Shown here: positions 1 through 56,393 of the stretch, in pieces
Numbering within the stretch: position 1 is the stretch's first letter
Layout: each line of letters starts with the position of its first letter
Assembly: GCF_002775205.1 (NCBI RefSeq)
Contig: NC_036443.1
Location: forward strand, 16,902,373 to 16,966,372
Source of the DNA: Xiphophorus maculatus
Taxonomy: Eukaryota; Chordata; Actinopteri; Cyprinodontiformes; Poeciliidae
Reading direction: 5' to 3'
DNA length: 64,000 nt
Notes under the pieces: model-generated
What the model saw: the letters and a program-made list of their open reading frames with translations, nothing else
Databases searched by the model: none
Told to the model about the DNA's origin: nothing
Translations under genes and position numbers: made by a program

Positions 1-714
1 ACATGCAAATTTTACCCGACAACTTGCTTCTGATTAATTCTCTGTTTTGTTTACTATACCGCACAGTCACAGGTGCCATAGAAATGTATGTACTTGCATG
101 TCAACGGCGGAGAGGTCATTGAAGCGCAGATTTGTAGGAAAATGAGTCAAGGTCGACTCAGGCTGGTGAGCCGTGTGACTCACCCTTAGTCAGCGATCTA
201 TATATGAAACACAGCTAAGATTTATCTCATGTAATTACTATTGTTGAGTTTCTCCATTGGAATTAATAATGTACAAACCTCTTCCACACTGTAATGATTC
301 TGATATTAATCTAGATTTAAATCAAAGTATTTATCTATTAATGTCACAAAAGAGGTTGGTGGTTTCGGAGGGGGCACCCGAACGTGGCCAAAGGGAGGCA
401 GAAGTGGAGAAAAAAAAAAAACCTGTTTAATAAAAAAGACATCTTACAAAACCAAAGTCCAAGGTTCAAACTTTCAAACACAAAATGAAGACATGAAATA
501 AATCCCAAAACATACCAGAAACATTGAGGGAAGAATTACTCACTGGGGTAGTTTCAAGCAGAATACATCAGCTGAGGATGGATGAACCAACAAAGAACAA
601 TGAAAAACAGTCATCTGATGTACTGAGTGATGAATGGAGAATGACACTGAATGCAGGTGAGTTAATCAGGGGATTAGGAACAGCTGTGAAAAACAGCAAA
701 CAGGCAGCGTGAGG
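1..714. other. Non-coding stretch, no gene recognised
   Basis: AT-rich sequence with no splice-bounded ORF or recognisable protein. A short + strand ORF at 524-712 matches nothing I know. It may belong to the decayed LINE that follows, since the LINE's 5' boundary is not visible. Confidence 0.5.
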
Positions 715-1812
715 GGAAGATGAATAATTAACCCAGAGGAAGCTGAACTAAACACATTAGATAATAACTGGGTAAGTTTTGCAAATGACAGAATTAAGAA
801 TATGTATAAATCCTTTGCAATTATATATACAGATGGTTCAAAAGATTTAGATTAAAATAAAACTGGATTTGCTTAAACTACTAATGAACCAGGTGTATTT
901 ATGAAACAAAGAACATCTGACCATTTAGCTATGTATACAGTGGAAATGTTAGCGATATTGATGGCCTTCAAAAATAAATTCAAAGATCAAAATAAAATTG
1001 AAAAAGTTCTTATATGTTCAGATTTATTATCATCACTAATGTCTATTTTAAATGCCTCATCTGACAGTCATGGAGTTGGTGTATGAAATTTATGAAGTTA
1101 TATTTAGAATGACACAAGCTCAAATAAAGATTAGGTTTACGTGGATACCTGCTCATAAAGATATAGAAGGGAATGATAACGCAGATCATTTAGCTAAGGT
1201 GTCTTTAAAACAAAGTAGAATTATGGAAATAAAATCTGAAATAATGTAAATCTGAAATAAAATCAGTTATTAAGAGCATAATTAAATCCAAATGGCAACA
1301 ATTGTGGCAGGAAGGAACTAAAGGTCGTCATTTATTTACTATACAAAAGAAAGTAGGGAATATGGAAATAATTGGAGAAAATCGAAAAGAGCAAGTAGTA
1401 ATGACAAGATTGCGGCTCGGACATAATGGATTACATAAAAACTTTACATTTGATAGGTAAACAGTTGTGAGTGTAGTATGGATATGGAAACAATAGAACA
1501 TGTAATAATTCATTGTGAAAAATATATAGTAAGTAGAGAGAAGCTAAATCAAGAAATTAGGAAATATGATATAGAGATATTAAAACTTAATAAGATATTA
1601 ATTAAACATAAAATAAATAAAGCAGTTATTAGATTTTTGAAGGAAACAGGATTATATATAAGAATTTAGATTACATTCTAAATTATTGTAGAATTTAGAA
1701 TTTATCCTGGAGTGTGGACTATGCGGGCCCACACTCCAGCATAGTAGATGGCAATAATACATCTTAACGTTAGATGTCACCCGCCAGTAAAAATCCAAAA
1801 GAAGAAGAAGAA
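715..1812 (+). mobile_element. Decayed non-LTR retrotransposon 3' end with RNase H (I/Nimb-like LINE)
   Basis: The + strand reading, broken by stops and at least one frameshift near 1075, shows an RNase H domain. Visible motifs are YTDGS at 826-840, a YTVEMLAI block near 931, CSDLLSSL near 1017 and TWIPAHKDIEGNDNADHLAK at about 1138-1197, which together supply the four acidic catalytic positions. Next come a TRLRLGHNGLH block (about 1408-1440) and a terminal segment with an EHVIIHCEKY motif (1494-1523), typical of the C-terminus of LINE ORF2. After the stop there is a hairpin (1707-1739) and an end rich in GAA repeats at about 1798-1812. An RNase H after the reverse transcriptase and a (GAA)n tail fit I/Nimb-type fish LINEs. 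The reverse transcriptase is missing, so the copy is 5' truncated and dead. Confidence 0.75.
1707..1739 (+). other. Hairpin in the LINE 3' UTR
   Basis: CTGGAGTGTGG (1707-1717) pairs perfectly with CCACACTCCAG (1729-1739) across an 11-nt loop, just after the ORF2 stop. A 3' hairpin is a known recognition structure for several LINE reverse transcriptases. That role here is inferred. Confidence 0.55.
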
Positions 1813-3544
1813 CTAGACACAGAAAAAACGCAAACGATGAGGTACAAGCACAGAGAAAAGAATAGGTTAAACCAGGTAACTAAATACGGAGGAATTAACT
1901 AATATGTCATAGCCTTAATGGAAATAAACAACTGAATATGGAAAAATATATTTTCTTACAGTAATAAACTCGGAAATAATTAGAGAGAAACACAAAAGAA
2001 ACAAAAAACAGGCACAAGCACCTGTCAATAGTTTCTTGAGAAGAAACATTGTGCTGAAACTCTACCTGGCCTCTATCCATGAGTGATTTTAACTCCCCAT
2101 TAGGACCATTAGCTCAGCTCTTGGATTCATGTTAACCTAAAATGTTGTCCCTTGTTTTTTGTTTCCTCATACTTCACTTCTACTTTACTTACAGTATATT
2201 CCCAATACAATATTACATTCCCCTTCTCTAGCCTCCTTTATAACTTGTTGTCTCTTCCCAACCCTTGATGTATCCGACTTCTTTCTCCCTGTTTTTCCAT
2301 CTTTGTCTTTGTCCTTGACCGTGGCCAAACAAGCATTCTTGCATCTGGCCCTCCTCTCTAGTCAAAGCTGTGGGATTTTAGATTCTCTCCAGGAAGGGGG
2401 AGTTACTGCCATAGCTATGCTAAAAGATTAACCACTTGTCATGAGAAGATTGCTGAATGTCAAGGTCATAAAAGCTAGGGTTCTAGAAAACATGTTAATC
2501 ATTTTGTTCATTCTGCCTTCAAGGCCTTAAAGACTGGACTCCCACGTCCACTTGTCCACTTCAGGAAGAGGGTGGGTTTACTGGTTTACTGGCTGGACCC
2601 AATTATAGCGAGGTGAGACCGGAGAGAGAGCAAAGCCTTTCCAGAATACAACTGGGATGCTCTGCCTCCAGAGGTTGGTATCAGCAAGTTGCATCTACTT
2701 AGTTTCATTTATTTGAGTACAACTAGTGTAGTTTTAGTAGGCCATATTTTGGATCTTTAATAAAGTAAATTACACATTCCTCCCTGTAAGAATTTGTTTC
2801 ATCTTAATCTTTAAAATGCCACAATTTGCACCTGACTTTATTTTATTCCTGTCATGATATCCCTTTAATGTTAAATCAGATGCTGTGATCTTACTTGAGT
2901 AGCCTTGTAAGCAAATACTTTTTTACTCTTGCTTGAGTATTTTCTTTGATGGTCATTTTTTACTATTACTTGAGGAAGAATGTATTGAAGTAGTGCTGCT
3001 CTGACTTGAGTACAATTTTGGAGTGAGTGCTCTGCTCCTGGAATATGGACAACCTTATTGCTCAAATTTACAGGTCCTAGCCCAAGTGCTACAACTATCA
3101 CTTGGGGTTTTTTCTACCCAAAATATTTTACAGAATATATAGCTTTAAGTTAGTTAGTCTCAAACTAAGACAATCAAATCTTTAGGTTATAATAAATTTT
3201 TGACTTGAATGAAAAAGAAGCACTCCAGCAAAAAAAGAAGAAAGAATCCCTCACTGTTGTATTATATTCAAATGCAATTACTGCTGAAATGAAAGTCAGA
3301 AGAAAATGTTTATTTTGGAGTTACTCATAGATGCCACAAGGTGATAGTGCTGTGTTTGTTTTGAATTCCCTTCAGGAATATCCCAATGACTCAATCTTAC
3401 TGTTAGTGATTCATACTTCAATGTAGCGTAAGTGCCTTGAGGTACTGTTTTGGCGTGTCTACTCAATGTCAATGTTGCTGTTTAAAAACCCACAACTCCG
3501 AAATAGAGTTTTTAAGAAATTATGTCTAGGATTGTGTACATTAA
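1813..3544. other. Intergenic, no gene seen
   Basis: AT-rich, with short ORFs only (for example + 2159-2431 and - 2871-3101). None has recognisable domains, convincing splice sites or a known protein match. Confidence 0.5.
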
Positions 3545-3790
3545 ACCAGTGGTCCCCAACCCCCGGACCAATTGGTGCCGGGCCGCGCAAGAAATAATTA
3601 AATACTTCCGTCTAGATTCCGATGTAGATTTACTACAGAAAGCTAATGGATCAGAAAGAATCATTTGCATCATCATCTGCTGTTGTTTCAAACTCAAAAA
3701 AATCGTTATTTTTTGTGACTCGTATGAGAAAAGGTAATTTCTTTATCACCTGTGTATGTGCATTAACAGAGGAGTAAAGGCGCTTGTGGA
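3545..3790 (+). mobile_element. hAT-like DNA transposon fragment
   Basis: The segment opens with CCAGTGGTCCCCAACCCCCG (3548-3567) and continues with a 'ggtgccgggccgcgcaagaaataattaaat' type sequence. This is the characteristic end of widespread vertebrate hAT (Charlie-like) non-autonomous elements. It runs on to about 3790 and has no transposase ORF. The opposite terminal repeat was not located, so the right boundary is approximate. Confidence 0.5.
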
Positions 3791-6700
3791 CACAAGCGTG
3801 TTTTCAACTACACAACTGTCTTGAAGTTGTTGGGAACATACTTTATAGGATGTGAAGTCTTATCTCATATATAAGATGGTCTTCCAATAGGTCACTGTAT
3901 AGCTTCTATGGCACAGTATGGTCATTTGTATCCAATTTCAGTTAATTTTTTAATGGGAAGGAGACATAATCTAACCTTGACCAAAAAGATCCCTGGATTT
4001 TTATCAAAAACAATGATTGTGTAATTTTCCTCAGAGACAAGACAACATTAACTCATGCCAGTGCTCTCCACCTGCACATATAAACTTGCATGGTTCTGAA
4101 ATCTGTTCTCTGTTAGACACAGAATCTGCTACTCAGGAAGTAACCTCTGGCTTATAACTGTGAGCCAGGTCTAATTCCAGGAGCAAAAAGTGGGGATACA
4201 GATAAATGAAAGACCATCAGAAAAAACAGAGTTGAATGATGACTTTTTTTACAATCCCTCGTTTTCATTTTCCACACCACGTCTGTTCTGATTCTCTCAG
4301 GATGTCCCTCAAATATAGTTTTGTCCAATTTTTCCACGGCTAGTAATCAAAACATCTGTGGGAACTGATAGTCTGTGTTTATTACAAACTTTCTTTCTGC
4401 TTTTTTTTGTTTAAAATTGGTTGATGAATGATTTAATTTGCTCCAGAAGTTTACTTGCATAATAAGGCTGAGAATTCAGATAAAATCTTGAACCTGCATA
4501 CCTACCTGATTCTTTTTTTTTTTTTTACATTTAATTGAAATCTACATTCAAGGGTTTAAGATGCTGTGCCTATGGGCTATAAAGTTTAGGAATGTTGTAG
4601 AGCCCCACTCAATAAATCCATCAAGTTAATACAATGTGATGTGAAGAACTGCCGTCGCCTTTTTTCCCCTTTGGAGCATTTCGACTCTGCAAGCCTTTGT
4701 AAATGTTTTTGTACTGTGTTACATCATTTGACATTTTATTGGGGAATGAAGTGCTTTAGCAGGAAATGTATCTCTGTCACATTGGCACTGGTTGACTCAT
4801 TCTGAACTTTCAGGTCAAAAAATGTAATGTTTCCAGTATTTCTGATTCACAACAGCTCACTTGGGTCTCAAACCATATGCCTTTAAACATAAAGAACATG
4901 TGGATACACATTTAAAAATAAGGTGTATCAAAAGTTCATTGAAATAGTTGTTCTTAACTCAGTCCAGAAGCCAATGAATATAAGGCCTTGAGCAAATATG
5001 TCTCACCTCAGTACAAATTTTCTACAACAATGCAAATTTTTGTTCTTCCATTTGGGTCTCTACTACACCCAGACATTTTCCTGTGGGTATTCTACATCCT
5101 TGCTCTAATTGGTGTAGGACGCATCTCCTGAGCTCTTTGTAGGAATTACTTCTCAGCGCAGCTCTCCTACGTGTTGTACAAAACTTAATGGAGAAACATT
5201 GTGATGACGTCCTGAAGGCAGAGTGTCAGATAGAGCAGGAGCTTCAGAGGCCCAACTTCAAGGCGTTTAATTGCGAAGTCAAATTTTATTTCAATTTGTG
5301 AAATATATACAGTGTTTTTTTTTCTTAACCCCTTAATTGGCAGTATCCCATCCATGGGACAAATCTAGTTTGTTTGAATACTCTGCCCTTTTCGCCACCA
5401 GTTAAGGGGTTAATTATGCTATAAAATGGCACTATGTGCATCCTAAATAGGACCAAAATTAGTTGTATTTTTGTCCGATTCACTTATTGCACTTGAAGAG
5501 TGGCACCTTATGGTTATTTAGAGCTTTATGCAAGTTTAGTTATTCTTCAAAAAATTCTTATGCTGTTCAAAGTGTCACTGAAATGCGTTTCAGTGATGTT
5601 TCAAAGAATAGGGAGATTTACTGTTGTGCTTAGCAGCATGCCAATAGAATCTCATACATTTAAATGTGATATTTCGACAAAACATTTCTACAGTATTATC
5701 TGATTAAATATAAGCCATCAGAAGCGTTTACTAACATTGTGGATAGTTTGCAAAACTTTCTGAATTTCAATAAATTCATTAAAAGCACTTATAAATCAGA
5801 GATTACAAATTAGCTTACTTTTTTATTGGCATTAAATAAATCAGAGTTGACTTAAAATAATCACCATTCGATGACAGCTATCAGGTATAAAAGTGTAAAC
5901 ATCAGTGGCATAACTTGAGTTTAAAATGTGCAGCTTGATTTAAAGTGAACATATATTATCAGATTGCTGGGTTCTTTGTGTAAATTAAAGATAAACATAT
6001 AGAAAACATATTTTATGGAATGTTAATATTTTTTAAAGCTGTTTGGCTGAAACGGTACATTTTGCTTAAATAAAAGATATTTTTGTATGTATGTGAATTA
6101 CATCTTTTGGAGTTATTTGAGGTGGCTGACCCCATCCTGACATCACTTAAGAACCCACATATTTATTTTGACATTGTGCGTTTCCATGACTACTTCTCAC
6201 AAAGCACCTAAAGATGCTTATGCAAACAATATGACATCATTTTACATGACAAAAACTAAATTCAAGGCAGCACCTTAGTGCTTGAAAGATTTTGACTGCC
6301 TGCTTATCCAACTGAGACTTTGTTTCTCATGAAACACTGAATAAATAATGATTGCAATAATAACTTTTTATTTGAACTAGGGACTTTCATTTCTAATCAA
6401 ACAAACCGCAAATGTCAATCTCACTTATGGGAAGCAAGATGACCTGGCAGCCATCCCACTCGAAGATTATTTCCAGTGGTTGACAGCGAGAGGAAATGCA
6501 CTACACTGAACTGTTGAGCGACTCAGAAAAACTGTTTACCTTTCTCAGTTTTTTTCTCTGCTACCCCCTCACCATCTCCTTTGCTCTTCCTCCCCCCTCC
6601 TCTGCTGCTGTCACGCTCTCCTTCTCACCCGCTCATAATCTGATGCCGTTGTCATCATGCTGACAGATGTGCGTGTTTGTTTGACCAAACCGCTGAAGCG

Positions 6701-8860
6701 ACGTTCCTGCTCATCTTTTAACAGGGACTTGTTACTAATGACTAATGCACACCACAGATAGGACAAATCTGTCACTTACTGTAAACTAACCTCGTACTGA
6801 TGGAAAGCAATGCTCGCCTTTCATGGTGTGGGCCACCTGCGTTTTCTTTACTGTTCACCTCAGCCAAATTTAATTACATGGCATGTCACTGGTACATTAT
6901 ATTAGTCGATCATTTTTTTTGTTGACTGGCTGACAAAACAAAACCATGCTACAAGAATCTGTTGTGTATATGGCTTGGCTCCAATGACGCTGACTTAGAG
7001 AAATGTCTCTGTCAGAAGTGTTTCCGTCTCCTACAGGACTTGCTTTCATTATCATAGCTTTGCAGCTGAGTAATCTGTGATTTTTCTCCACTTATATACA
7101 TTTTGTTTATTAAAATAACTTCTCTCTGCCTGAGCAATCGCTTCTTCATTCTTGCGGTGCCTTGCCATGCTCACGCTTTCACCGCATACAATGAGAAATT
7201 CCACAACAGAAAATGTTTCTGATTAATTGGAAAAAAGGGAACCTCCTCTCTTTCCAGTAAACTACGCATGGCTGCTTCTGCCACATACCAATTCTCCTTG
7301 GAGGGTCCTGCTTATTGTATAATTCATAACAACTTATTAAACAATTGCTTTGTTTACATCACTGTGTGAAAACGTGAATCACACCCTGTCTGCTCTTCCT
7401 GTTGCTGAGAGTTTTGGAATTTCTTTGTCATTATTTGGACACAAAATCATCTCCTTCTAGCGTTCCAATTCTTTCAAGACATATCTCATTATGTAGTATA
7501 TTAATGAGTGATGCCTATCCACCCAATAAAAATAGGTTTATTTGTGGCTATGGGAATGAGATGTTGCACTCTGCAAAATGTTTTCCACCACATTGCCATA
7601 GTTTGTAAATCTGTCACTTTTGGAAAACTGATGTGAACCCTGACAAAAGCAAACACAATCTCAGATGAGCCATCATATGTGTCAGTCTGAGCATTAGCAG
7701 CAGTGATCATTAGCAATCATCATCTGTTGCACCATCTAAACATTTTAAATCTTTTTGGAGGAGTCTTCGACTACTCTTTATGTTAGATAGTTGCATCAGC
7801 TAACAAAAGCTTGGAGACTTTTGTTTATACATGTTGCTCTTAAGGTCTGACCACAAAATTTGAATCAGATGCAAATCTTAACTCTTCTTGGCCAATGCGA
7901 CAGATGGTTTTATTTCGTTTGCTCTCCTCTGGTTGTTTATGCTGCTAAGTGACCCGTTTTCAACAGCCAGACTAATTACTTAAGTACGCAGAGCGTAGTG
8001 GATCAAGTGAAGAAATAGTTGACATCCGTTCACCGTTCGTGGAAAACAAATGTTTCCATAATTGGACAAAACACTTAAGAACTCATCTGAATATTTTCCT
8101 GCACTAAAAAAATTATTTCATGCATTGCAGTAATGTGCATGTTTCTTATGTACAGTATTACTGTGAGAGATTTTGAGGCAAATGCTAAGGTAATCCTATA
8201 ACTCAGAAGTGTTCTCTAAAACTCTCTGACCCCCATGCTCATGGGAACAAGTGTTTACTCTGCCTCCACCAGTATTAAACAAAAGCCACATATTTTCAAC
8301 ATTAAGATCCTACAGGCTCACCTCGGGCCCGGCTGCCCGTCAACCTGGATCAGTCAGTTTGCCCCATGTTTGGACCACCTCCGGATGTGTATATGTGAAG
8401 CTGAGTGTGTTTGATTGTGTTTATTGAACTCAAAAGATATCCCTGTTCTATCAGTTTGTCAAAACAATAGCTATCTGCATGGCCAAAGATTACTTGGTTG
8501 TTTTGGAGATGCAATGCAAACTGACCTTCCACCAGAGTTTCCTTAATGCATTCATGCTACCTAAGGCAGTAAAAGAGTAGGAAAGAATTTGGACATAGAA
8601 TCCTCACATTTTATAGTTGTTCTTAAGTAAAATACAACAGAACATCACCAACGGAGAGAAACAAGAAGTAAAAGACTGAAACCACTGTTAAAAGTTTTCA
8701 CCACTAATTATTACTACATTGGACTAAGAAGCACATTTCCCTTCATCATGTAAGTAGAGCGAGAAATGAACTAAAAGTCAAGCATAGTTAATATTTGTCC
8801 TATTGTCCTGTTGTTTAACACAGTTCGCTATTCATAGGAATCTATATTAATGGTACAATT
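3791..8860. other. Intergenic, no gene seen
   Basis: About 5 kb of AT-rich sequence with many stops in all frames. There is a short pyrimidine-rich tract at about 6540-6640. No coding exon, RNA gene or well-bounded repeat was recognised. Confidence 0.45.
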
Positions 8861-8864
8861 TTCC

Positions 8865-9065
8865 AAGTTGCAGTCAAAAGCATCAGTGTATTTTATTGAG
8901 GTTTTATGTAAAAGACCAATCCATAATACCACACAATTATGAAGAGGAAGGAAAATCATACAAGGTTTTCAAATTAGTTCGTTTTTACAAATCAATCTAC
9001 AAAGCCGGTTCTTTGGGCTCCCAAATGGCTCCTCAGATTTTATTGCATAAATTAGAGAAGTATAT
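8865..9065 (+). repeat. Degraded interspersed repeat (family also at 10.9 kb and 48.1 kb)
   Basis: The core reads 'ttttattgaggttttatgtaaaagaccaatccat...acacaattatgaagaggaaggaaaatcat'. This matches a dispersed fish repeat whose intact copies begin with 'gtgccttgcaaaagtattcac'. The block at 10,893-11,080 has the same order of motifs. The transposon class is left open because no terminal repeats or transposase are visible here. Confidence 0.4.
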
Positions 9066-9069
9066 TTGA

Positions 9070-10580
9070 AATAAATTGCCAATGAAAAAAAACTAAATTA
9101 CATCAAATGTTCAATGTTCAATATTAAATTTTTATTTTGCATTGCCTACAATCTGTCTTTTAGCTGTCTATCACATTAAAATCTGTTCTAATTTTGTGTG
9201 GATTTATTTTAAGTATTATTACCCAGCTTGTAAGATCTGTCTAAAGGTTGAATTATAGTTGGGCTTTTGAAAGGGCACCCATCATGTTTTAAACTTTTGC
9301 AGTTGTGCGTCCTAATCATTTTTCAATGCCTTTAAGGAGTAAGCACTGTCCTGAATGCTTCCAACTCGGTCCACATGCTAAGAGATACAGTGATACCACG
9401 CTGGCAGGATGTGGGGAGTAGCGTGTGTGGAGAGGGTTGGGGCAAAGGGCATACTTGCTGGGTAGGTCTTGGAACCCATCGGCAACTGCTTGCAGTTCTA
9501 CATGCATTTGTGGTTGTAACGTGACAATATCTGGTCCAAGTTGTATTGATACTTGTGGAAGTTGTGTCTAACTGCCTTGCACATAGCCAAATGTGGAAAT
9601 TGTAGTTTGAAGAAAAAAATATAATTATAGCCTCTAACAATATTAGCTTGTGGGAAAATACCTGAGCATGGATTTAAAATACCAAATTTATTCTCTGTAG
9701 TCCAGTTAAGATTTCCAAAGGGAACTGAGCCAATTATATTTTGATAAGCCTCAGCTGCCTGTCTTTGTAAGCTGGTGGATACAAAGCAGGCAGTACCCAC
9801 ACATAATGGATCTTGCTATGTTGTAAAAGAACATTTTTCAGAGGACCTCTGTGCCTCAGAAGGTAAAATTAAAAACAGAAGCCACTGTGTTTTTGTTAAG
9901 AAATATACCATCGACCACTAACTGCTTTCTGAGCTTTGCTATATCCAACCAGAAGGCTGCAAACTTCACAAGGCAAAAACATTAAACTTGAAGAGGTAAA
10001 TATTTGCAGCACCCATAAACTTTGTGGTATTTCAAAACTGAGACTATAACAGTGAGACGGATGCAGCAAAGTATTGTTGATAAGTAGTAACTGGTCAGCT
10101 TCAACTCACCTTAGTGACCTCTTGAATATTTGCATCATTGAAAGACATATATTCATACACATTAAGGCATCTAAATATGCAAATTATTCTTACAAACACA
10201 CTCCTACACATTCCTGTATGTACATGAATGGGATGTCTTTTGAAGTTGGTGTGGCAACATTTCAATGCATGTATTCAGATCCTTTGAGTGGTGCATGTTT
10301 GACAGCTTTATATTAAATAAAGTCCATAGCTTTTAAAGATGTGTGAGATGCCCCATATAACAATGAGTCACAAGTCTTAACTTCGAAAGTTTTAAATGGT
10401 GAGTGTATGCACTTAGACTGCACTGGATAAAATGTGAAAGCTTTACCTTTAATTTGATTTTTTATACAATCTACTGGCATGTATCAGCCTGAAAGAAGAC
10501 AGCTTGATATTTTGAGACACAATAACTTTGTTACTTATGCGATGGTAACTTTGGCTTCCAAAGGAAAAATAAATAAATAC
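9070..10580. other. Intergenic; unexplained overlapping minus-strand ORFs at 9.3-9.8 kb
   Basis: Three overlapping minus-strand ORFs of 63, 102 and 100 codons lie at 9316-9507, 9332-9640 and 9498-9800. I do not recognise them, they share no frame, and they have no clear splice context. No other coding signal was seen in this stretch. Confidence 0.35.
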
Positions 10581-10639
10581 TATATCAACCTAAAACACTA
10601 TTGATAGGTACTAGTTTTAGTAAAATTATATTTCTTGTA

Positions 10640-10790
10640 GCCTTTATTTTGTGTATGTGTGTGTGTATCACAGAGCTACGGTTCAGAGGGTCCAGGTGGC
10701 AGGCATGAGGGCCCCAGTCTTCATTGGAGTTTGGCTCTAGAGTCCACAGGCGCTTCTTCAATTGGACACATTTCACAGGTACATCTAGAC
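10640..10790 (-). other. Exon-like open block, identity unknown
   Basis: On the minus strand a pyrimidine/TTG-rich tract ends in TTTGCAAG and is followed from 10,790 by an open, relatively GC-rich frame. That frame includes LKKRLWTLEPNSNEDWGPHA and runs through an AATAAA at about 10,650 to a stop at 10,585. The base composition and acceptor-like start suggest a terminal exon or a fragment of a processed transcript. I do not recognise the protein, and no partner exon was found. Confidence 0.25.
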
Positions 10791-10892
10791 CTTGCAAACC
10801 AACAACAAAAAAAAGACAGATAAGAAAGGCAAGACCGGAACTGTTGTGGCCAGTCTTTTTCTGAGTTATGTATTTATATAAATATTCTAGAT

Positions 10893-11260
10893 AAGTGCCT
10901 TGCAAAAGAATTCACACCCCTGGATCTTTTTTTAGATTTTTCATGTTAATACCACAAACTTTGTTTTATTTCTCACGATAGATGAACATGAAAAGCTAGA
11001 CCACTGTGAAGAGGAGGGAAAATCATGATTTTCCTATTTGTTTTTACAAGAAAAAGTCTGAAAATTGTGGAACCTTTAGAAGGATTCATCAGCTACTTCC
11101 TCTAAATGGCTCCTGACAAACTCCAAACAGGACTGTTATTTCAGAGTTATTTCACATGAAGGTCTTGTATGTGGAGCGCACAACTAATAGTTCTCCTGTC
11201 AACAGATTCTTCCATAAGCTGTTGCTCTCTGGACGTCCTCCAGAATGACATTGGGCCTCT
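10893..11260 (+). repeat. Degraded DNA-transposon-like repeat ('gtgccttgcaaaag' family)
   Basis: It starts with AAGTGCCTTGCAAAAGAATT at 10,893, then 'ttcatgttaataccacaaactttgttttat' and 'gaagaggagggaaaatcatg'. This motif order is seen at the end of a common fish interspersed repeat. Further homologous-looking sequence continues to about 11,260. No intact ORF remains. Confidence 0.45.
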
Positions 11261-11264
11261 GGGC

Positions 11265-12565
11265 TCTTTGCCTGACCTGTCAGTTTAAGTGGATGCTAAT
11301 GTCTTTGTAGGTGTGGATCTGTCAAACTCTTCTCAGTTTAAATAATTTTATCTCTGACATGTCTAGTGTGTGCTAAAGTTATTTAACAATCCTATGGGTG
11401 TCGGGGTACTTGCTTGTTTGGGATTTGGCTTTTGTATTTTTCAAATATTTTCTGGTGTTTTATTGATGTTTTAGAAGTTGGGCCAACGTTTCCATGATTC
11501 GAGTACACAAACTGAAGCAAAGCATTATATCACAACATTAGCCATTAGCATTAAGACCGAATGAGCGGTAAAAGTGTTGGAATGGTGATTTCATAGTGTG
11601 AATGGATCACACCCTGAATCATGCTGGAAATTATGTATTGTGCTGGAGGGGGAGTTGTTTCACTTTGTGTTATCCAAAACCGATCTTGTGAGTGGGTCAT
11701 TTTAATGCACTGATTCTAGATTTAAAACACTCAAATGAATGGCCCTTCCCATGATTATTGCTTGATATTTAGTTTATTCTTGTGTTCTCCTCTTGGAGCA
11801 TTTGGATATAGTTATGTTAGACCTGTCTTAATTTTTCCCCTTTGTGTAGTTTGTTTGAGTTTTAGTCACTAACATCTACCGAGAACGTCTGGGATGACTC
11901 CTACCACCGTCACCCCAGACAGTCTCAGTAATTGTGTCCATCAGCAAGACAGTGGTCAAAGGGTGCTATTTACAGTTTAGTTCAACTCCCTTTGTGTCCG
12001 TCTTCCTCTCTCAGTTTCCATTTTTCTCCCTGCCACATCTGTACCACATTTTCTCTGATTAGCTTCTTTGTCATTTCCTCAGCATTAAGGCTACTGGATT
12101 TTGTTTGTTTCTTCCTGGATTCTTTCGTTAGACTGTCTGTCACACTCACGCCAGTTCCATGTTCTGTTCCCTTAGTGACTACTGTATAAGTCTCTATTAT
12201 TATTATTAAAGAAACACTCCAAACTCGGGTTCTGCCTGCATTTTAGTACAACTAGAAACCAAATATAACGATGCCTTCACAGAACACCTGTTTTAATACT
12301 GACGATAACGTACACACAGGTCATTTATATTTACTAAATGAGTAACTTGTGAAGGACATTCTATGAACTTGATTTTTTTTTTTAGGGTTATCAAAGTCTA
12401 TCAAAAAATTAGCAATGAAATACATTATAGCTTGTGGGCAGAACATTGAGATAAACTACATTAGACTCAATTATACATACATTCTTCTAAGCTACTCATT
12501 GGGCAATTTCTCAAACATAAAGCTGTTGTAATAGTGCTAACTAAGATGATTTTCTGTCTTTGACC
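11265..12565. other. Non-coding sequence upstream of the ngf coding exon
   Basis: No coding exon seen. Part of the stretch (about 11.9-12.25 kb) looks like a decayed LTR. The 5' non-coding exon(s) and promoter of ngf must lie upstream of the acceptor at 12,567-12,568, but I could not place them. Confidence 0.4.
11900..12250 (+). repeat. Possible decayed LTR end
   Basis: A pyrimidine-rich tract with 'ttctgttcccttagtgactactgtataagtc' is followed by (ATT)n, AAAGAAACACTCCAAACTCG and 'ggttctgcctgc'. This resembles the 3' part of a fish Gypsy-type LTR (polyadenylation region followed by a 'CTCxxACTCGGGTTCTGCCTGC'-like end). No flanking gag/pol or matching second LTR was found, so a solo or truncated LTR is only a guess. 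Confidence 0.25.
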
Positions 12566-12568
12566 CAG
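12559..12568 (+). promoter_or_regulatory. ngf: Splice acceptor of the ngf coding exon
   Basis: TTTGACCCAG, with AG at 12,567-12,568, lies 11 nt before the ATG. This is where the upstream 5' UTR exon would join in NGF genes. Confidence 0.6.
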
Positions 12569-12579
12569 GACGTGTGCCC

Positions 12580-13440
12580 ATGAGGTCATCACTACTGGTT
12601 CTGCTCCTCCTGATCGGCGTCCAGGCTGTACTGAACATGGGAGGTGGTTTGGCCCGGAACCCTGGAGCAGCCAATCACAGCGCAGGGCAACAGGAGACAG
12701 CAGCAGCCAGGGGACAGCTTTCTCAGGACCAAACTTCATATCAGCAACACAGGACCACCCATCATAGAACCAAGAGGACACAGAGTGCAGCCTCAAACAT
12801 GCAGAACAGAACCCCTGTCATTGGACCCTCTCCAGCAGGTTCCTCTCCAGACCCCTCCAGCCCAGTGGTGGACCCGAAGCTCTTCTCTAAGAGACATTAT
12901 CGCCCCTCACCTCGTGTTGTCTTTAGCGAGGTAATCCCTTCGCATGACGTTCTGGATGGTGAGGGTTATGACTTTGAAAGGGTGAGGGGGCTGAGGGTAA
13001 GGCGCAAAGCAGTATCACACACCATGCATCGAGGAGAGTACTCTGTGTGTGACAGTATAAATACCTGGGTGAACAAGACACGAGCCACAGACATGTCTGG
13101 AAATGAAGTGACAGTACTCTCCCACGTTACAGTCAACAACAAGGTAAAGAAACAGCTTTTTTATGAGACCACCTGTAGATCCCCGACACACAGGAGTTCT
13201 GGAATCGTAATCGGGGGACGATCTGGAGGACGAGGTGGAAAGCAAGGCTCCAAGACAGGCAACTCAGGTTGTCGAGGCATTGACAGCCGCTACTGGAACT
13301 CCCACTGCACCAACACAGACATATATGTAAGCGCTCTGACCGTCTTCAAGGAACAGACAGCCTGGCGTTTCATCCGCATCAACGCTGCATGTGTGTGTGT
13401 TCTCAGCCGGAATTCTTGGTCAAGAAGACCGGGACACTGA
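12580..13440 (+). CDS. ngf: Nerve growth factor precursor (NGF, neurotrophin-6-like form)
   Basis: Encodes a secreted neurotrophin precursor of 286 aa, acting through Trk and p75NTR receptors on neurons. Residues 1-19 form a hydrophobic signal peptide (LLVLLLLIG). Residues 20-142 are the pro-domain, which ends in a furin site R139-V-R-R142, giving a 144-residue mature chain. Mature landmarks are GEYSVCDS (C157), YETTC (C199), [15 protein letters not shown] (C231 and following) and [17 protein letters not shown] near the end, the cysteine-knot signature. C199 and C231 are 31 residues apart against 9 in human NGF: a Gly/Arg/Lys-rich insert of 22 residues. The ATG at 12,580 follows a splice acceptor (tgacccag, AG at 12,567-12,568). 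This matches the family's single main coding exon preceded by non-coding exons. An in-frame GTG at 12,574 is not a credible start. The neighbour tspan2 supports the call. Confidence 0.96.
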
Positions 13441-15083: not shown

Positions 15084-16074
15084 TGACAAACAGAACAGTG
15101 TTCCCTCCCTGCTGATTCCCCACCTTTCCTCACAGCACCAGGTGCCTGGCTGTTCTCTCACCATCACTAATAATGCTCTCTCACACATCACTCTTCCAGT
15201 ATAACAAGTACACAGTGTGTTTCCAGGAAACATCATTATGCCAAGCCTGTGTGATCAAAGGTTTTTCTTCTTTTTTTCAGAAACTGACTCTAGATAAACT
15301 CCATTTGGCAGAAGCTACTGACATGCATTGAGATTTACTAACAGAGCACTGCCTCCTTTTGATCCTGCAACAGCAGCTGTGCAGTTATACAAGGTATTAA
15401 TGTGCAGAAGCAGAAAGTGAAGCAGAAATCACAGAAAATATGCAAAATGTTATAGGTTATGTTTTTTTATACCACAATCAAACACTTACCATTTTCACAA
15501 CTTAGTCCAAAATTGCCTTGAAAAAGGGTTGATTGTTTTTACCAATTAACCAGTCTGTGAAACAGAATGGTGGAAAATAAGTTTACTGACTTACTTAAAC
15601 ATTAGCAATTCTATCTCTGAATGGCTGAAAAAAATAAAGTTAAAGAGAGAAAAAAAGGGGTTTGGAGTAACCTAGTCAAAGGGACTTAGAACCAGTTGAG
15701 ATCATATGAAGTGGCCATCTTGGTTATTTCCAAGATGGCGGCGCGCGTAGACGCAGCTGCTCTGTGCTCACCGACTCGAAGTTCGTCTTTTCCACTTTGC
15801 TCGGTTAAGAACACCTACAACCGACAAAATTTACTGGCCATTGGTCAAGCAATCGGGGAAAGGCTGTCACAGGAGCTTTTCCGTGTCCACAACAACATTC
15901 CGGTCGATATTGCGCGGACACCGGGCTCTCCCTGGATTACAATCCCAGTATCTAGGAAAGGGCGACGGCGGAGAGATCGTAAACAAAAGAGGGGGTGTCG
16001 CAGCGGCGTGTTAGTTAGCGAGGCTCAGGAAACAACCACACAAACCACCGCTACCAAGCATCTTTCTCTCCAAC

Positions 16075-16557
16075 GTGAGGTCTCTCGCTAACAAACTGGA
16101 CGAATGGAAGCTGTGGATTGCAACTGACAACCTCATCCGGGAATGCTGCATTCTGTTGATCACGGAGACGTGGTTAAATCCAACCATACCGGACCCGGAG
16201 ATGGAGTTAGCAGGCTACACAGCACATGGACAGGACCGATCAGCGAGCTCCGGTACGAACTCCACAGTAGTTGTTAGTCACTGTTCTCCAGGCGTGGAGG
16301 TCATCACAATTAAATGCAGACCCCGATACCTCCCACTTGAGTTTAACGCCATTCTACTCACTGCGGTTTACATAGCACCGGATGCTAACGCTAGCTCGGC
16401 CGTGGGACTCCTGCATGATACTATCAGCAACAACCAGAAGAAGTACCCCGAGGCTGTTCATATCGTCTCTGGGGACTTTAATCGTGCTGATCTGAAATCA
16501 GTCCTCCATAAATTCCATCAACACGTAAAGGGCACAACCAACTTCATGCTGCCCTGA
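16075..16557 (+). pseudogene. LINE AP-endonuclease domain, truncated
   Basis: A 160-codon open frame. It contains LLITETWLNP (the catalytic-Glu region), a TAVYIAPDA block and HIVSGDFNRAD (the GDFN-like motif), all landmarks of the non-LTR retrotransposon endonuclease that nicks target DNA. The frame ends where the internal deletion joins it to RT sequence out of frame. The true upstream frame continues back through SIFLSNVRSLANKLDEW (about 16,059-16,107), lost by a frameshift. Confidence 0.8.
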
Positions 16558-16589
16558 CCCACTTAGAGAAGCAGGGGAGCTACGTCAGA

Positions 16590-17345
16590 ATGCTCTTCGT
16601 GGACTTCAGCTCAGCATTTAATACCATACTTCCCCAACGTCTGGTGTCCAAGCTAGCAAACCTTGGGCTTCCATCAGCCACCTGCAGTTGGATCCTGGAC
16701 TTCCTAACATGTCGCTCCCAGAAGTTCAGACTGGGTCCCCACACCTCCACTGCTCTGAGCCTGAACACCGGATCGCCACAGTGTTGCGTGCTCAGCCCAC
16801 TTCTTTACACCCTCTACACTCATGACTGTGTCTCCAACCACCTCAGCAACAAGATCATAAGGTTTGCAGATGACACGACTGTTGTTGGTCTCATCTCAGG
16901 CGGGAAGGGGGAGCTGGAGTACAGGGATGAGGTGAAGCGGCTGTCAGAGTGGTGCAAAGTCAATAACCTGCTCCTCAACTCCTCCAAAACAAAGGAGCTG
17001 GTGATCGACTTCAGGAAGAACAAAACGGACATCCAGCCTCTCACCATCAGTGGGAGCTGTGTGGAGAGGGTCCCAGTGTTCAGGTTTCTGGGCATGGAGT
17101 TGGAGGACAAGCTAACCTGGAGCACCAACACCAAGGAGCTGTTGAAGAAGGCACAGCCGAGACTGTACTTTCTGAGAATACTCAAGAAGAACCGTCTCCC
17201 CTCAGACCTGCTGCAGGTCTTCTATCACTGCTCCATAGAGAGTGTGCTCACGTACGGTCTGTGTGTGTGGTACGGCAGCAGCACATCCACGGACAAGAAG
17301 GCGCTCCAGAGGGTTGTTAGGGCAGCAGAGAGAACCATAGGCTGA
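16590..17345 (+). pseudogene. LINE reverse transcriptase domain, 5'-truncated
   Basis: A 251-codon open frame encoding the palm and thumb of a non-LTR reverse transcriptase. MLFVDFSSAFNTI carries the first catalytic Asp, GSPQCCVLSPLLYTLYTHD is the template-grip region, and FADDT supplies the catalytic Asp pair. KELVIDFRKN and FRFLGMELEDKLTW are typical L2/CR1-group motifs. The start is only the first ATG; homologous codons extend back to about 16,540 (LHAALTHLEKQGSYV). A TGA at the end interrupts a frame that resumes at PLPTMEQIYTS. Confidence 0.85.
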
Positions 17346-20537: not shown

Positions 20538-34306
<13,769 letters not shown>

Positions 34307-42830: not shown

Positions 42831-43788
42831 TTACGAGCATGTTGTCAGGTTTCCAAAACATTTCAGATTCTGTTTCTCCATACCACCAAGTTCCACAGAG
42901 CACTGATCGTAAGAGTACGGTCTCGGTTTGACACAGTGGTGCGTGCGCGTGTCACAGCGCCTGCAGCTGCAGCAGCGGGCCGCGGGATAATACAACTGTG
43001 AGCTGACATCCTGAGGACAGCCAGGAATGAAAACAGCCCGGTACACAAGGGAGATGGGCACACAGCTCCGCTGAATCAGGAAAGCCCTGCCAAATCTGCC
43101 CTTCAGATTGGTATCCTGGAGGACAGGAAGAAAGGATGAGAGGAACAGAGCAGTTTTTGACCAGAACTTCAAAAATGTTTAAAAGACTATTTCAGAATCT
43201 ATTCTTTGAATGTGCAACACCACTTTAATTATCCATCCATCCAACCATTATATATACTTGGTTAACCCTGAAGATTATAAGGGGGCTGGTGACTATCTAT
43301 TGCTCTCATTGTGAGAACCGGGGCAAGTCCTGGACAGGCTACTCGTCAAACACAGAGCAACACAGAGACACACAGATCAAAAACACACACACTCACACCT
43401 AATAACTATTTTAGAGTAACTAAATAACCTAACTGATATTTGCATTATGGGTGGAATTGTGTGTGTGTGTGTGCAACCGCAGCGCACTGAAGAACACCTA
43501 TGGGGAGAACCTTAATGGAGAATCACTCTACGCTGCCACCATACAGCCACACTTCAAATACACTTAAAAAATACTTTTGCAAAAAATAAAACCAAACAGA
43601 AACAGTCTGTTTGTGGCAATTCTCACTCTCGTGTAGCAGTAGCCACTGCATATGGTTGTGTTGACTGCCACACACTGGGTACAGTTTTCCTTCTCAATCC
43701 ATATGGTGTGATTCATCAGCATACAGGTGTAGACAGCTCCAACCATTAATGCAAAAAGCAGAGTCCATCTCAAAATAAACAGAGACAT
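42831..43788 (-). CDS. tshb: Thyroid-stimulating hormone beta subunit (divergent TSHB-like)
   Basis: Secreted glycoprotein-hormone beta subunit that would pair with the common alpha chain, 148 aa. Coding exons 43,788-43,627 (54 aa) and 43,115-42,831 (94 aa plus TAA), with a phase-0 intron GTGAGA...CTCCAG. A signal peptide spans about residues 1-20. All twelve family cysteines align with fish TSHB spacing: C22, 36, 39, 47, 51, 72, 87, 103, 105, 108, 115, 126. [13 protein letters not shown] matches the NTTIC-G-C block, and AFLIQRSC and IPGCP match other TSHB landmarks. Oddities: three extra cysteines (C102, C140, C147) and four N-glycosylation sequons (N26, N35, N43, N143), where a single conserved one (NTT) is usual. 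CSGY replaces the tetrapod CAGY. Salmonids and some others have two tshb paralogues; the divergence suggests this may be the less conserved one. Two AATAAA signals lie on the minus strand at 42,701-42,706 and 42,675-42,680. Confidence 0.88.
43205..43490 (+). repeat. LINE-tail-like repeat inside the tshb intron
   Basis: 'ttatccatccatccaaccat', 'aagattataagggggctggtgactatct', 'ggcaagtcctggacaggcta' and 'acacagagacacacagatca' follow the order of a widespread teleost repeat with a (TCCA)n end. It fills most of the 511-bp intron between the two tshb coding exons (43,116-43,626). Confidence 0.65.
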
Positions 43789-44115
43789 GCTAGAAAATGC
43801 AGATACAGACATAAATGAGCAATCAAGAAGCAATCCTTCGGAAAATGTAAAGCACAAACATAAAGATAAAACATTTGAAAGACGCAGAGCACTTCATCTG
43901 AACAGATTTTGTTGAAATGTTTACAAACCTGTTTGTTTAATCTTGGTGAATTAAACTATTGTTGTTACCACATCAGACATGCAGTGAAAAAAAATGAGTC
44001 CTTCTGGATGTGCAATCTCTCACGTTTAGAAAAAGATATTCTTTGCACTGCTGTTTTTCTACTTAATGTCATCTAAGTTCTCCAACTCTTCTCTGCTTTT
44101 CTCCTCTGTTAAGAT
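43789..44115 (-). other. tshb: Predicted tshb non-coding exon 1 and intron 1
   Basis: On the minus strand, a donor-like AAAC|GTGAGA ends a possible exon at 44,024. The next exon starts at 43,789 after TTTTCTAG, one base before the ATG. A short non-coding first exon followed by an ATG-bearing second exon is the usual TSHB gene layout. Confidence 0.5.
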
Positions 44116-44140
44116 TTGAAAGTACTGTGTCTGTTCAGCG

Positions 44141-44155
44141 TCTTTTATGCAAACC
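44141..44155 (-). promoter_or_regulatory. tshb: Candidate tshb TATA box with an octamer-like site
   Basis: On the minus strand CATAAAAGA (44,149-44,141) is a good TATA-type element about 25-30 bp before the predicted exon 1. Overlapping it, GGTTTGCATAAAAG contains TTTGCAT, an octamer/POU-like core. Pit-1 (a POU factor) drives TSHB in thyrotropes, so the site is plausible; binding is inferred. Confidence 0.45.
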
Positions 44156-45985
44156 TTAATCCATCTTGGCTGCCCCACTAAACTTCAGTCTATGATATCC
44201 TCCCAGACATTATGTCAGCTGACGGCAGGTGTGTGCGTGCGCACATGAATGTTCATTTTCACATGTCGTACTATTTGGTGCACAGACGGGAGGAGGTGTC
44301 ATGCTTATCTAAATTTGAGTTCCAGCAGGTTCAGATGGCGGTCAGTAAACTAGTACATATGCCAGCCAGAACTGATCAGTGAAACTGGTTCCTTGGGTTT
44401 CTGGAAACTGAACAAATCCAGATTTTAATAAAAATTATTTCTTTTCTAAACTTGTGACACATTTTAAGTCAACGTTGCTTAAAAAAAAATGAAGCGATAG
44501 GACGGTTATAATGATTAAATAAAATAATATACGTTTTTCATCAAGAAGTCAGTCGCAAATCAAGTCATTAATATTAAATCAGTTTGTGAAAATCAAGCAT
44601 CTTTGCTGTTAATCCAGCTTATGTTGGGACAATACTCACATGAAAAAGTCCCACTTGAGAAAAAGGATGTAGCTGCCTGTCAAACTAATCTAAATAGTTT
44701 TAGATGAGCTCAAATTACAGCCTGAAAACATTGCTGATAAAACACATGGTTTTATTATATTATATTTCCTTCAAATAGCTTATTTTTATAGGTAAATGAG
44801 GAAAGAATCGACAAACAATGAATAATTTCATGAATAATAAGCAGTTTGTTTTCTCCAGTATAGTTTTAAAGACTGCAGGTGCATGCATATAACACGAGGG
44901 CTCAATCTGAATTAACTACAATTTTATTGTCAATATGAAGAATGAGCTAATATGTACGAACACTACAGTGAGGAAGTTGATCATGCAAATCTTATGACTT
45001 TCACAATTTATCTGTTTTTTCTTTTTTTTTTTTTGACCTGGTCTTACGGATGGTTTGTTTTTGCTCTACATTTCCGACGATGGGTCAGAACTATGTAACA
45101 AAGCTATCAGATGAAAACAATAAACTGGGTCATAAACAGTTCAACAATTATCTTCCTTGACACACATTTGAAGGGTTTTCATCATTTGGGTGACAAGAGG
45201 TTTATGAAAAAACAAAACCAACAATGATAAAAGTTATGTATGTCCTTAGGCAGCTAGAGTGCCTATGCACAATGCTTGAAGAAAATAAGACATCCATCCA
45301 TCCATCCATCCATCCATCCATGTTCTAACACCTTTAACCCTTGTGGGATCAGGAGGGGTACTGGTGCCTATCTCCAGCTAACGTTCTGGGCGAGAGACGG
45401 GGCACACCCTGGACAGGTCACCAGTCTGTGAAAATAAGACATATTAATAACATTTGTTTTGTTATTTGTTTTACTGTTTTTGATTTTAAAATGATTGAGA
45501 AGCTATTCTATTCTTTCTGGATTAGTAAAGAAAAAAGAGAGAAGAAATCAGGTTAAATCTGTTTCCATACATATCATAAAAATCTTAGTGAGAGTGATAT
45601 CAACAACAGGATATCACTCTTCAATTTTGTCCTCCATCCATTAAGAAATAATTTAAAATAACTGCCCACATCTAAATGGCTTCCCTGTAACAGTTAGTTG
45701 TTTTTTCCACCATTAGCACATTTAGCAGTGCATACATGAGATTGATTGACAGTGCTAAGACACTTCCCCTGGGTCTGATTGGTTGTTTTTGATCTGGACG
45801 ACTTGGGTGTGATGCATTTCTTCAGATGGCAATAGTAACTCAGGAGATGGAGAAGCTCGATTCTTTTCCACAAATTAGCTGTCTTATATTATACTGTCAA
45901 AACACAGTGACACTTTTAACAAATATGTAAAAAAAGAAAAAAAAGCATATTTGAAAAGGGGAAAGCATGCATTAAATGTTCGTTG
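44156..45985. other. Upstream flank of tshb, no gene seen
   Basis: AT-rich sequence with no coding exon. It contains the LINE-tail repeat at 45.3 kb. Control elements of tshb beyond the TATA region cannot be identified by eye. Confidence 0.4.
45293..45432 (+). repeat. LINE-tail-like repeat with a (CCAT)n run
   Basis: Eight CCAT-type units (45,293-45,320) lead into 'gttctaacacctttaaccct', 'gggatcaggaggggtactgg', 'tgcctatctccagctaacg' and 'cacaccctggacaggtcacc'. This is the best-preserved of four copies of this repeat in the window. Confidence 0.7.
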
Positions 45986-46015
45986 GCTGAGAATCAAACC
46001 CAGAGGACTGTGGCC

Positions 46016-46276
46016 AAGGGCGTAGGTTTGGTCTAAGTTTTGGTGGGACCTTACAACTTACTCACCAACTCACCAGCATTTAAAATGAATGCTACCACTG
46101 CGTAGTATATTGAAATATTAAACTAATCAATGCAGATTTTCGTTTATTTATTTTTGTTAAAAAATACATATGTTTTTTTTTTTATTTATATGGCAAAAAT
46201 TGGTCGGGACTATTTTATATCCCTTGAATATTGGTCGTGACATGTCACGACCGTCCATACCCAAACCTACGCCCAT
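46016..46276. mobile_element. MITE with 16-bp inverted repeats and 10-bp target duplication
   Basis: The ends are AAGGGCGTAGGTTTGG (46,016-46,031) and its inverted partner at 46,261-46,276, with one mismatch. GACTGTGGCC flanks both sides (46,006-46,015 and 46,277-46,286). A 9-10 bp duplication suggests a Mutator-like parent, but the family is not certain. The element is 261 bp and has no transposase. Confidence 0.8.
46233..46252. other. Perfect 20-bp palindrome inside the MITE
   Basis: GGTCGTGACATGTCACGACC is its own reverse complement with no loop. It sits 8 bp inside the right terminal repeat. It may be a subterminal transposase-binding site or a subterminal fold; neither is shown. Confidence 0.85.
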
Positions 46277-46914
46277 GACTGTGGCCTCTGTGTGTGGTGC
46301 ACGTGTGCTACCACTGAGCCACGTGGAGTCAGTGCAACTGTGCTGTGAAGAGGACAGGTTATCTGATTGCCCCCCTGCCCACCGCTTTTGTTTTCTCTTT
46401 GTTACATCAGTGACACCTGCAATGGGATGTCTGAGGCTCCAGTTGTTTGGCTGTTGCAGATCATATGAGTAACTCTGCACGCTAAGATAATGCCCTGAAA
46501 CTGGGTCAGACAGATCGAGGGACACTTTCTGTTTGGTGGAGGCATGCCCTGACCATGCCCTAAAGTCCACAAGTTTTCAGGGTAAGGTACATATGAGTTT
46601 TACTTATTGTTCAGATAATTTTGGTCTCTGGTCTCTGATCAAGCCGTCTTCTTTCATATATTTGCTGTGTGTAGGGATAGGTGGCATCAAAAGTAGCATT
46701 ATGAAGACTAACAATAGAAGGCATATTAATATAAATAACTACCTAAATAAGTAAATAACTTTCACAGCTCATAAACACCCATCAACTCATTTTCTAACCC
46801 AATGTATAAGAAATCTGATGCACGTTATAATTAAGACTGTTGCTTTGTTTTTTTTTTTTGTTTGTTTTTTTTTTTACTTTTATCGAGCTTTTACAAGCCT
46901 GTTGCTTAATCTGA

Positions 46915-46928
46915 CCACTAGATGGCAG
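46915..46928 (+). promoter_or_regulatory. CTCF-like motif
   Basis: CCACTAGATGGCAG matches CCASYAGRKGGCAS at all 14 positions. It is the strongest of the four candidates in the window by sequence, about 2.8 kb upstream of the tshb promoter. Confidence 0.35.
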
Positions 46929-48099
46929 ACAAAACCAATCTCCTGTTTCCCCCTCAACCAGGATAAAAATATAGAAAAGATTGATCTTTATGAGTTTAAC
47001 AAATCAGTACAAGCTTCCTCCTTGGGAAGTTGTGAAAGTGTTATGTACTGTAACTATTATTATTTTTTACATTTATTTATTTACCTTTTAATGATGAGTG
47101 CCTTAGAGGATTATTTGCAAAATATTCTGACCACGACTTAGAACCGGTTCTGAAGACAGATTGAAGTATTTGTGATATTTTCAAATGATGGCAATCAGAC
47201 TGTTACACTTAAACAGTAGAGATTTTTGAACATGTCATTCTGCTTCCTTGATCTTACAGGTAGTAGGTGCTTCAAAGTCCTCTTTGCACAATTTAAAATA
47301 GCTTTGAAATGGATGATGCATTTGACAGTGTGTGCTTAACGCAAAAAGCTTAGCTCAGTGACAGTGTTTATTTGCTTTGGAATATTTCTAGTTTCAACCA
47401 TTTGCCTCCCTGATAGACCTTCTTACATCTGTTTTCGATTACACTAAATTCAATAGGCAGCATCTCACAAATCACATCAATCAAAAGCACTGTAGAAAAT
47501 CAAACAGTTGATTGTTTTGAGTATTCCCTTGTTTTTTGCTCACTGAAAACACAAGGAGAATCCTTTAAAGGTTGGGAGTGGGAGATATTTCTGGTGCCAT
47601 TTTTAGGGGACTTTGACACATCGCAGGAGGAAGAGGGAATAGTTTGACCCAAATCATCACAGATGTCCTTGAAGATAGTCACTTATTAATAACATCAGGA
47701 ATCTGGAGGCCACCTCTAGTCCTCGTTCCAACTCTCCTCCCTTGCCTGCAAGGCTCCAATCCAGTATGATGTCCTAAGTTTTATCCTTTTTTGGTCTGCG
47801 TGCACCTTCACTTGCACTCGCACGTAACCACAAGGCCCCCACAGGGCCTCAAAATCAATCTTGCAGTGCTTAAAATAATCAACCTAGTTGAGGGAGAGGG
47901 CTTACCAGTGACATGTACAGTAGAGGAGTATTCCTTCTCTACTTTGACTTTAATCTTATTCTCTAATTTTAATATCTGAAAGGCCAGCCTTTTTTTTTGG
48001 CTTTGTTTGATTTGCACAATCCTAAAAACACATTTCAGAGTCATTGATTTACCTCAAATTAACCAGACCTACTAGAGACATTTTATGTTGTACTCATGG

Positions 48100-48400
48100 A
48101 AGTACAAGTTGAATCAGATACAGCTCCATGCAAAATATTTACGGCAATCCATTTACACATTTCGTTATATTACAAGCACAAACATTTGTGCATTTTATTT
48201 ATACGTTATGCAATATGCAGAGTTGGTACACAATTGTGGAGTAGAAAGAATAGGATGAATTGTTTTCTAATGTTCTTCACAACAAAAACGGGAAAATGTA
48301 GTGTGCTTTTGTCAATAACTACCTTTTGGTTCAATTACAGTGGTCAGTGGTCAAAGTTTGTTCTTTATTTGGAAAAATGCGAGACATAAATATGCTTCCA
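48100..48400 (+). repeat. Diverged copy of the 8.9/10.9-kb repeat family
   Basis: 'ctccatgcaaaatatttacggcaatcc', 'gtgcattttatttatacgtta' and 'acacaattgtggagtagaaagaataggatga' keep the motif order of the copies at 8.87 and 10.89 kb, with much decay. Confidence 0.35.
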
Positions 48401-51400: not shown

Positions 51401-52028
51401 TATTTTCCTCATCCCTCCTCATCTGACCCTATCTGTCAAACCACACAGCCGTCTCCGTGCAGCTGTATTTTCAGCAAATACAAGTGGCCACATATTTGAA
51501 GGTCTCTGGTGAATATCTGCGGAGAATGGCTGCGAGCACCTGGACAAAAAGGCAAAACTGTAAAGTGTGACAGAATGTGCACGATTGTGTGCCAGTCTGA
51601 GTGCGCACCTGAAGGCTACTAAAACAGAAAAGTAATATAAATTGGTAGCTTCTGCATGAAACTGAGCAAGGAAACCAACTTTCCCACTCACATGCACACA
51701 GACAGACACACACAGAGAGAACAGCACAGAGGCAAATAGAAACCCAGTATTTAGTTCCTGCGTCACCACAGTGGCCATCTGTCAGCATGAAGGCCTTGCG
51801 TATGGATCGACTGAATTAAAACTCACACACGGAGATGCCACGCTGCGTCTAGATACAATAATTGTTCAATTCACCGAAGAAGTCTCTCACCCCGCTGACC
51901 TTTTCTGTGTTGCAACTTGGTTGGATTAACTTAAAACATAAAGCACCGGATAATCTGCCGGTCTGAACAGTTCTTTGTCATATCCCTTCATCTATTTCTC
52001 TCTTCTTCCTGTCTTTTTGTCCCTCTCT

Positions 52029-52071
52029 CCATCTCCATCTCCATCTCCATCTCCATCTCCATCTCCATCTC
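52029..52071. repeat. (CCATCT)n microsatellite
   Basis: Seven CCATCT units. On the minus strand it reads through as a Met-Glu repeat, which accounts for the spurious ORFs across it. Confidence 0.9.

Positions 52072-56337: not shown

Positions 56338-56338
<1 letters not shown>

Positions 56339-56391
<53 letters not shown>
56339..56391. repeat. (CA)n microsatellite
   Basis: About 26 uninterrupted CA units. Confidence 0.95.

Positions 56392-56393
<2 letters not shown>

Follow-up and report, generated by a model that had tools for sequence, protein, structure and literature searches.

A 64,000-nucleotide stretch of the Xiphophorus maculatus genome (NCBI RefSeq assembly GCF_002775205.1, contig NC_036443.1, positions 16,902,373 to 16,966,372 of the forward strand; hereafter the window, whose own numbering is used throughout) carries a gene for a nerve growth factor (NGF)-type neurotrophin. 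It is best explained as a neurotrophin-6 (NT-6) duplicate of ngf that lies near tspan2 and a Tshb3-type thyrotropin beta gene, and whose mature protein contains a 22-residue insert that would serve as a heparan sulphate tether. We assign this explanation as a whole a probability of about 85%. The part that concerns origin is firmer, in that the gene is very probably the NT-6 (NT-6/7, ntf7) copy of ngf produced when the teleost genome was duplicated. NT-6 is co-orthologous to mammalian NGF and paralogous to the classical ngf of fishes.

The open reading frame at 12580-13440 on the forward strand encodes, in a single exon, a complete prepro-neurotrophin of 286 amino acids counted from the ATG at 12580, and belongs to the NGF family (Pfam, E 7.1e-45). 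Eleven exon bases upstream of this ATG lies a splice acceptor that is strong (99.6th percentile on its strand) and has its last base at 12568. In the NT-6-type ngf gene, the 3' coding exon thus spans 12569..13440 (+), where 13440 is the end of the stop codon. A signal peptide and pro-region (12580..13005, +), read from the sequence together with the furin-type site RVRR at their end, precede a mature neurotrophin of 144 amino acids (13006..13437, +; calculated isoelectric point, 10.05) with six cysteines at residues 157, 199, 231, 243, 271 and 273. The best PDB match of the mature protein is human NGF (135.9 bits), ahead of NT-3 (about 100), BDNF (98) and NT-4 (82). Thus, the Pfam assignment, the PDB match and the RVRR before 13006 identify an NGF-type cystine-knot neurotrophin with a furin-type processing site. 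Outside the insert, 68 of the 119 aligned residues are identical to human NGF, the sequence used for the latter agreeing with the PDB alignments.

The protein departs from human NGF between the second and third conserved cysteines, C199 (codon 13174-13176) and C231 (codon 13270-13272), which enclose a Gly-rich, basic loop of 31 residues (13177..13269, +) versus 9 in human NGF, that is, 22 extra residues. The reading frame is open across the loop, the conserved SGCRGID block continues in frame, and the phmmer match to NGF chains breaks in two around this stretch. Glycine accounts for 10 of the 31 loop residues versus 4 of the 113 elsewhere in the mature protein (binomial P 7e-8, calculated post hoc). 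Six loop residues are Arg or Lys and none is Asp or Glu, giving a calculated charge of +5.8 versus -1.2 in the human loop. A first-pass annotation, made from the letters alone, had counted 31 residues between C199 and C231 against 9 in human NGF, and had described three Gly-rich steps with Arg/Lys in the insert; the codon positions agree with this count and the steps can be seen in the loop sequence. The interval that it gave, 13177..13272, has the correct start and covers the loop, but its end takes in the C231 codon, whereas the loop codons stop at 13269.

In both size and place, this insert matches that of NT-6, which is reported to carry 22 additional residues between the second and third conserved cysteines (PMC6571927). 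To this can be added the matches to oligonucleotides designed for NT-6 of Nothobranchius furzeri, five of which were taken from the same paper (its mismatch control being excluded) and compared with 300 shuffles each. The locked nucleic acid probe (19/23), the right primer for quantitative PCR (18/20) and the riboprobe left primer (18/20) matched the signal peptide and pro-region on the forward strand at 12595-12615 and 12678-12700, and in each case 0 of the 300 shuffles did as well; the latter two oligonucleotides overlap each other. Two control oligonucleotides for TBP matched at chance level, in a comparison that had no classical ngf control. The in-frame oligonucleotide matches read S/RAGQQET, LVLLL/FLI and S/RAASNM/T.

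Several observations weigh against this assignment or against the function proposed for the insert. Human NGF H4, which we take to be a TrkA contact, aligns with Ser in the window protein, directly followed by a His, whereas Tyr stands in the place of H75. The heparin-binding motifs XBBXBX and XBBBXXBX were both looked for in the mature protein, and neither was found. The insert was compared with that of NT-6 by the length and place given in the published description, and signal-peptide oligonucleotides may match classical ngf as well as NT-6. The riboprobe right primer falls at 12783-12802 (+), where its order and frame are as expected, but this match (14/20) does not exceed chance and a better one (16/20) occurs elsewhere in the window; the left primer for quantitative PCR was not found above chance in the window (best, 15/20). 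The origin of the riboprobe right primer is also uncertain, because it is reportedly printed inside an NTRK1 primer as well (PMC7348706). Furthermore, N. furzeri NT-6 is reported to be highly conserved with fish NT-3 (PMC6571927), which sits uneasily with the view of NT-6 as an NGF paralogue (NT-6 = NT-7 = ngf duplicate). Finally, a lamprey neurotrophin is reported in one paper to have an insertion likened to that of NT-6; the insert alone is therefore not diagnostic of NT-6.

Two side results concern these oligonucleotides. The left primer for quantitative PCR was considered as a lead to a 5' exon and was rejected, 15/20 being the chance level. Separately, the 20-base reverse primer printed for N. 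furzeri NT-6 (PMC6571927) recurs within the NTRK1 reverse primer (PMC7348706), which is perhaps a copying slip.

Which copy of ngf the window contains was judged from the neighbouring genes. The order and strands are ngf (+), tspan2-like (+) and tshb-like (-), which we take to equal the human TSHB-TSPAN2-NGF arrangement. The tspan2-like gene (20538..34306, +) is a partial tblastn model with a first exon at 20538-20606 and more exons at about 33355-34306, built with human TSPAN2 as the query, the counterpart of human residues 32-47 not being located. The tshb-like gene (42831..43788, -) encodes 148 amino acids in two coding exons, 43788-43627 and 43115-42831, and is open throughout. Its product has N26-H-T where classical TSHb has D-x-T, in addition to the usual N43-T-T, with four sequons in all (N26, N35, N43 and N143), and contains 15 cysteines; the human TSHB precursor has 13, of which the signal peptide holds one. 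Its top PDB match is narrowly to FSHb chains (74.7 versus 73.6 bits); an FSHb identity was nevertheless rejected, the C5-C6 spacing being 20 residues, the TSHb value, and not the 18 of FSHb and LHb. The marks reported for Tshb3 are two N-linked sites, of which the first was created by an Asp-to-Asn change at the second position ahead of a conserved Thr, together with additional cysteines, and some Tshb3 proteins are reported to have scattered further N-glycosylation sites (Maugars 2014, PMC4227674).

The teleost genome duplication is reported to have left two tspan2/tshb-type loci. In zebrafish, ngf and tshb are reported on chromosome 6, whereas the copy on chromosome 23 has ntf7 near a tshb-related gene (Dos Santos 2011), and Tshb3 is reported to be the Tshb copy that arose in the teleost duplication and to be located close to Ntf7, the ngf duplicated in 3R (Maugars 2014, PMC4227674). 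The signature of the neighbour and this reported synteny both place the window gene near Tshb3 and not near classical Tshb. Since the neighbour carries the Tshb3 marks, the window represents the Tshb3 copy of the locus, and classical ngf should accordingly lie elsewhere in the genome. The link to NT-6 that the first-pass annotation had drawn is supported by the size and place of the insert, the matches of three of the five N. furzeri oligonucleotides and the Tshb3-type neighbour. Its statement that NT-6, given homology, is the ngf orthologue holds insofar as NT-6 is co-orthologous to mammalian NGF, but the gene is a duplicate copy and not classical ngf. Its further statement that NT-6 sits at the tspan2/tshb locus and not at a separate one is not supported, as teleosts have two such loci and the window is the Tshb3 copy.

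Two alternatives to this assignment were considered. According to the one, the window gene is orthologous to classical ngf and occupies the classical tspan2/tshb locus, where the insert was gained, and NT-6 has no separate locus. The adjoining tspan2-like and tshb-like genes and the NGF-type protein would agree with this, but the tshb-like neighbour bears the marks of Tshb3 and not the classical ones. Moreover, its product is 36.4% identical to trout classical TSHb and 40.5% identical to human TSHB, whereas the trout and human proteins share 48.9% identity, and Tshb3 is close to ntf7 in the reported synteny. We regard a classical ngf as very unlikely. According to the other, the extra stretch results from an assembly error or is absent from the mature mRNA as a hidden mini-intron, for which nine in-frame GT-AG trials were listed and the sites ranked against all GT/AG on the strand. 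Excision of 63 nucleotides at GT-AG 13196-13258 would shorten the loop to 10 residues, the result nearest to the human loop length; however, the donor ranks only at the 6.6th percentile and the acceptor at the 53rd. A better donor at 13175 (69th percentile) combined with the same acceptor would leave 3 residues, with the loop all but deleted. A hidden mini-intron was rejected on these grounds, either the splice scores being too weak or the loop nearly deleted, and the frame is open throughout the stretch and NT-6 has been described with an insert of equal length. Taken with an assembly error, this alternative is scarcely credible.

The product of the NT-6 duplicate is predicted to be an NGF-like secreted dimer and should act through TrkA. 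W21, R59, W76 and R103 of human NGF, which are presumably important for TrkA, are all kept in the window protein. The calculated charge of the mature protein is +13.2 versus +4.8 in human NGF, and falls to +9.2 without the 22 residues; the insert thus supplies about half of the excess. The body of the protein has an XBXBBX basic cluster, NKVKKQ (13138..13155, +; human counterpart, NNSVFKQ), ahead of the insert, and an N-glycosylation sequon, NKT, at residue 165 (13072..13080, +), where human NGF has GDKT, its own sequon being N45. The sequon and the basic charge, both read from the predicted mature sequence, would fit a heparin-binding glycoprotein. NT-6 is reported in reviews to interact with heparan sulphate proteoglycans, and is also reported to have survival activity like that of NGF with lower specific activity; by analogy, the X. 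maculatus protein may bind heparan sulphate as well. Loop 3 is reported to sit at the end of the neurotrophin molecule opposite to the other loops, so that a long flexible loop 3 need not disturb the fold. In the mechanism that we propose, the 22 extra residues would turn loop 3, which lies at the other pole from loops 1, 2 and 4, into a longer, flexible tether with positive charge. Together with the more basic body and its XBXBBX patch, this tether would most likely keep the protein bound to heparan sulphate close to the producing cell, resulting in short-range signalling. That the insert itself is the heparan sulphate tether is a proposition to which we give roughly even odds.

A competing view of the insert is that it is a neutral product of slippage in a surface loop that tolerates expansion, with no role in binding, and that the basic body alone binds the matrix. 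A 12-bp unit occurs twice within the insert (13216..13239, +; 83% match; coding GRSG-GRGG), a hint that slippage enlarged it, about half of the excess charge and the XBXBBX patch lie outside the insert, and variable insertions are reported in cyclostomes, including the lamprey neurotrophin. The marked bias of the loop, with its six basic and no acidic residues, and the identical length of the insert reported for NT-6 argue in the opposite direction, and we consider neutral expansion unlikely on balance, though by no means negligible. Less likely still is a trade of binding modes, suggested by the sequence, in which the protein would remain a TrkA ligand, bind p75NTR weakly and be held by heparan sulphate instead. 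It would follow from the combination of a long basic loop at one pole with changes, at the opposite loop 1/loop 4 pole, of lysines that serve p75NTR binding in mammalian NGF: K32, K34 and K95 of the human protein are replaced by S, N and E, respectively. A fourth human lysine, K88, is also replaced, by S (K88/K95 region, 13330-13353). The joint mutation of K32 and K34 with E35 is reported to abolish p75NTR binding by proNGF. Against such a trade, BDNF reportedly also has Ser at position 32, and binding to human p75 has been reported for zebrafish NT-7. Loop 1 itself (13087-13107) reads TDMSGNE, with a BDNF-like DMSG, where NGF has TDIKGKE.

The surroundings of the three-gene block were also searched. 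No match to vangl1 was obtained in the window with the human protein as the query, and Rfam and tRNA searches gave no matches. In all six frames, no Pfam domain was detected at E 0.01 in positions 1-12600 and 44001-64000, the region from 13 to 44 kb having been checked only for single genes; stretches without recognisable domains thus flank the block on both sides. Pieces of a fish retrotransposon of the type without long terminal repeats lie behind the ngf gene (15696-17345, +): the reverse transcriptase part at 16590-17342 matches Pfam RVT_1 (1.1e-15) and ALKBH8_N (2.2e-18), and the two pieces preceding it have no Pfam match. One scan of a viral contig collection yielded no relatives and no fish neurotrophin proteins.

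The literature, as printed or cited, traces NT-6 back to 1994, its derivation by duplication of ngf to 2003, and the placement of the duplicate beside a second tshb to 2011-2014. The gene, the type of insert and the neighbourhood are already known, and nothing here is new in kind; one more fish is added to the known NT-6 group. What the window corrects is the view of the locus, as it contains an ngf duplicate near Tshb3 rather than showing that NT-6 is classical ngf. Where flanking genes are described merely as tspan2/tshb, NT-6 and classical ngf cannot be separated; the type of the adjoining Tshb does separate them, and annotators can use it as a simple guide when assigning names to both ngf genes of fishes.

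Compared with known neurotrophins, the window protein shares the six knot cysteines with mammalian and classical teleost NGF, and keeps the four human NGF residues W21, R59, W76 and R103, whereas its loop 3 stretch is 31 residues long, versus 9 in human NGF. We take the insert of NT-7 to be shorter than 22 residues. The zebrafish and carp gene concerned, ntf7, is reported in one paper as the NT-6 orthologue, and in zebrafish is reported to lie near a tshb-related gene. Like teleost Tshb3, the neighbour in the window has both N-glycosylation sites and extra cysteines; unlike it, the neighbour adds two sequons, N35 and N143. With NT-6 of Xiphophorus and N. furzeri (Gotz 1994; Leggieri 2019), the window gene shares the NGF-type mature domain and an insert of 22 residues at the same site, and its signal peptide and pro-region resemble three of the five N. 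furzeri oligonucleotides.
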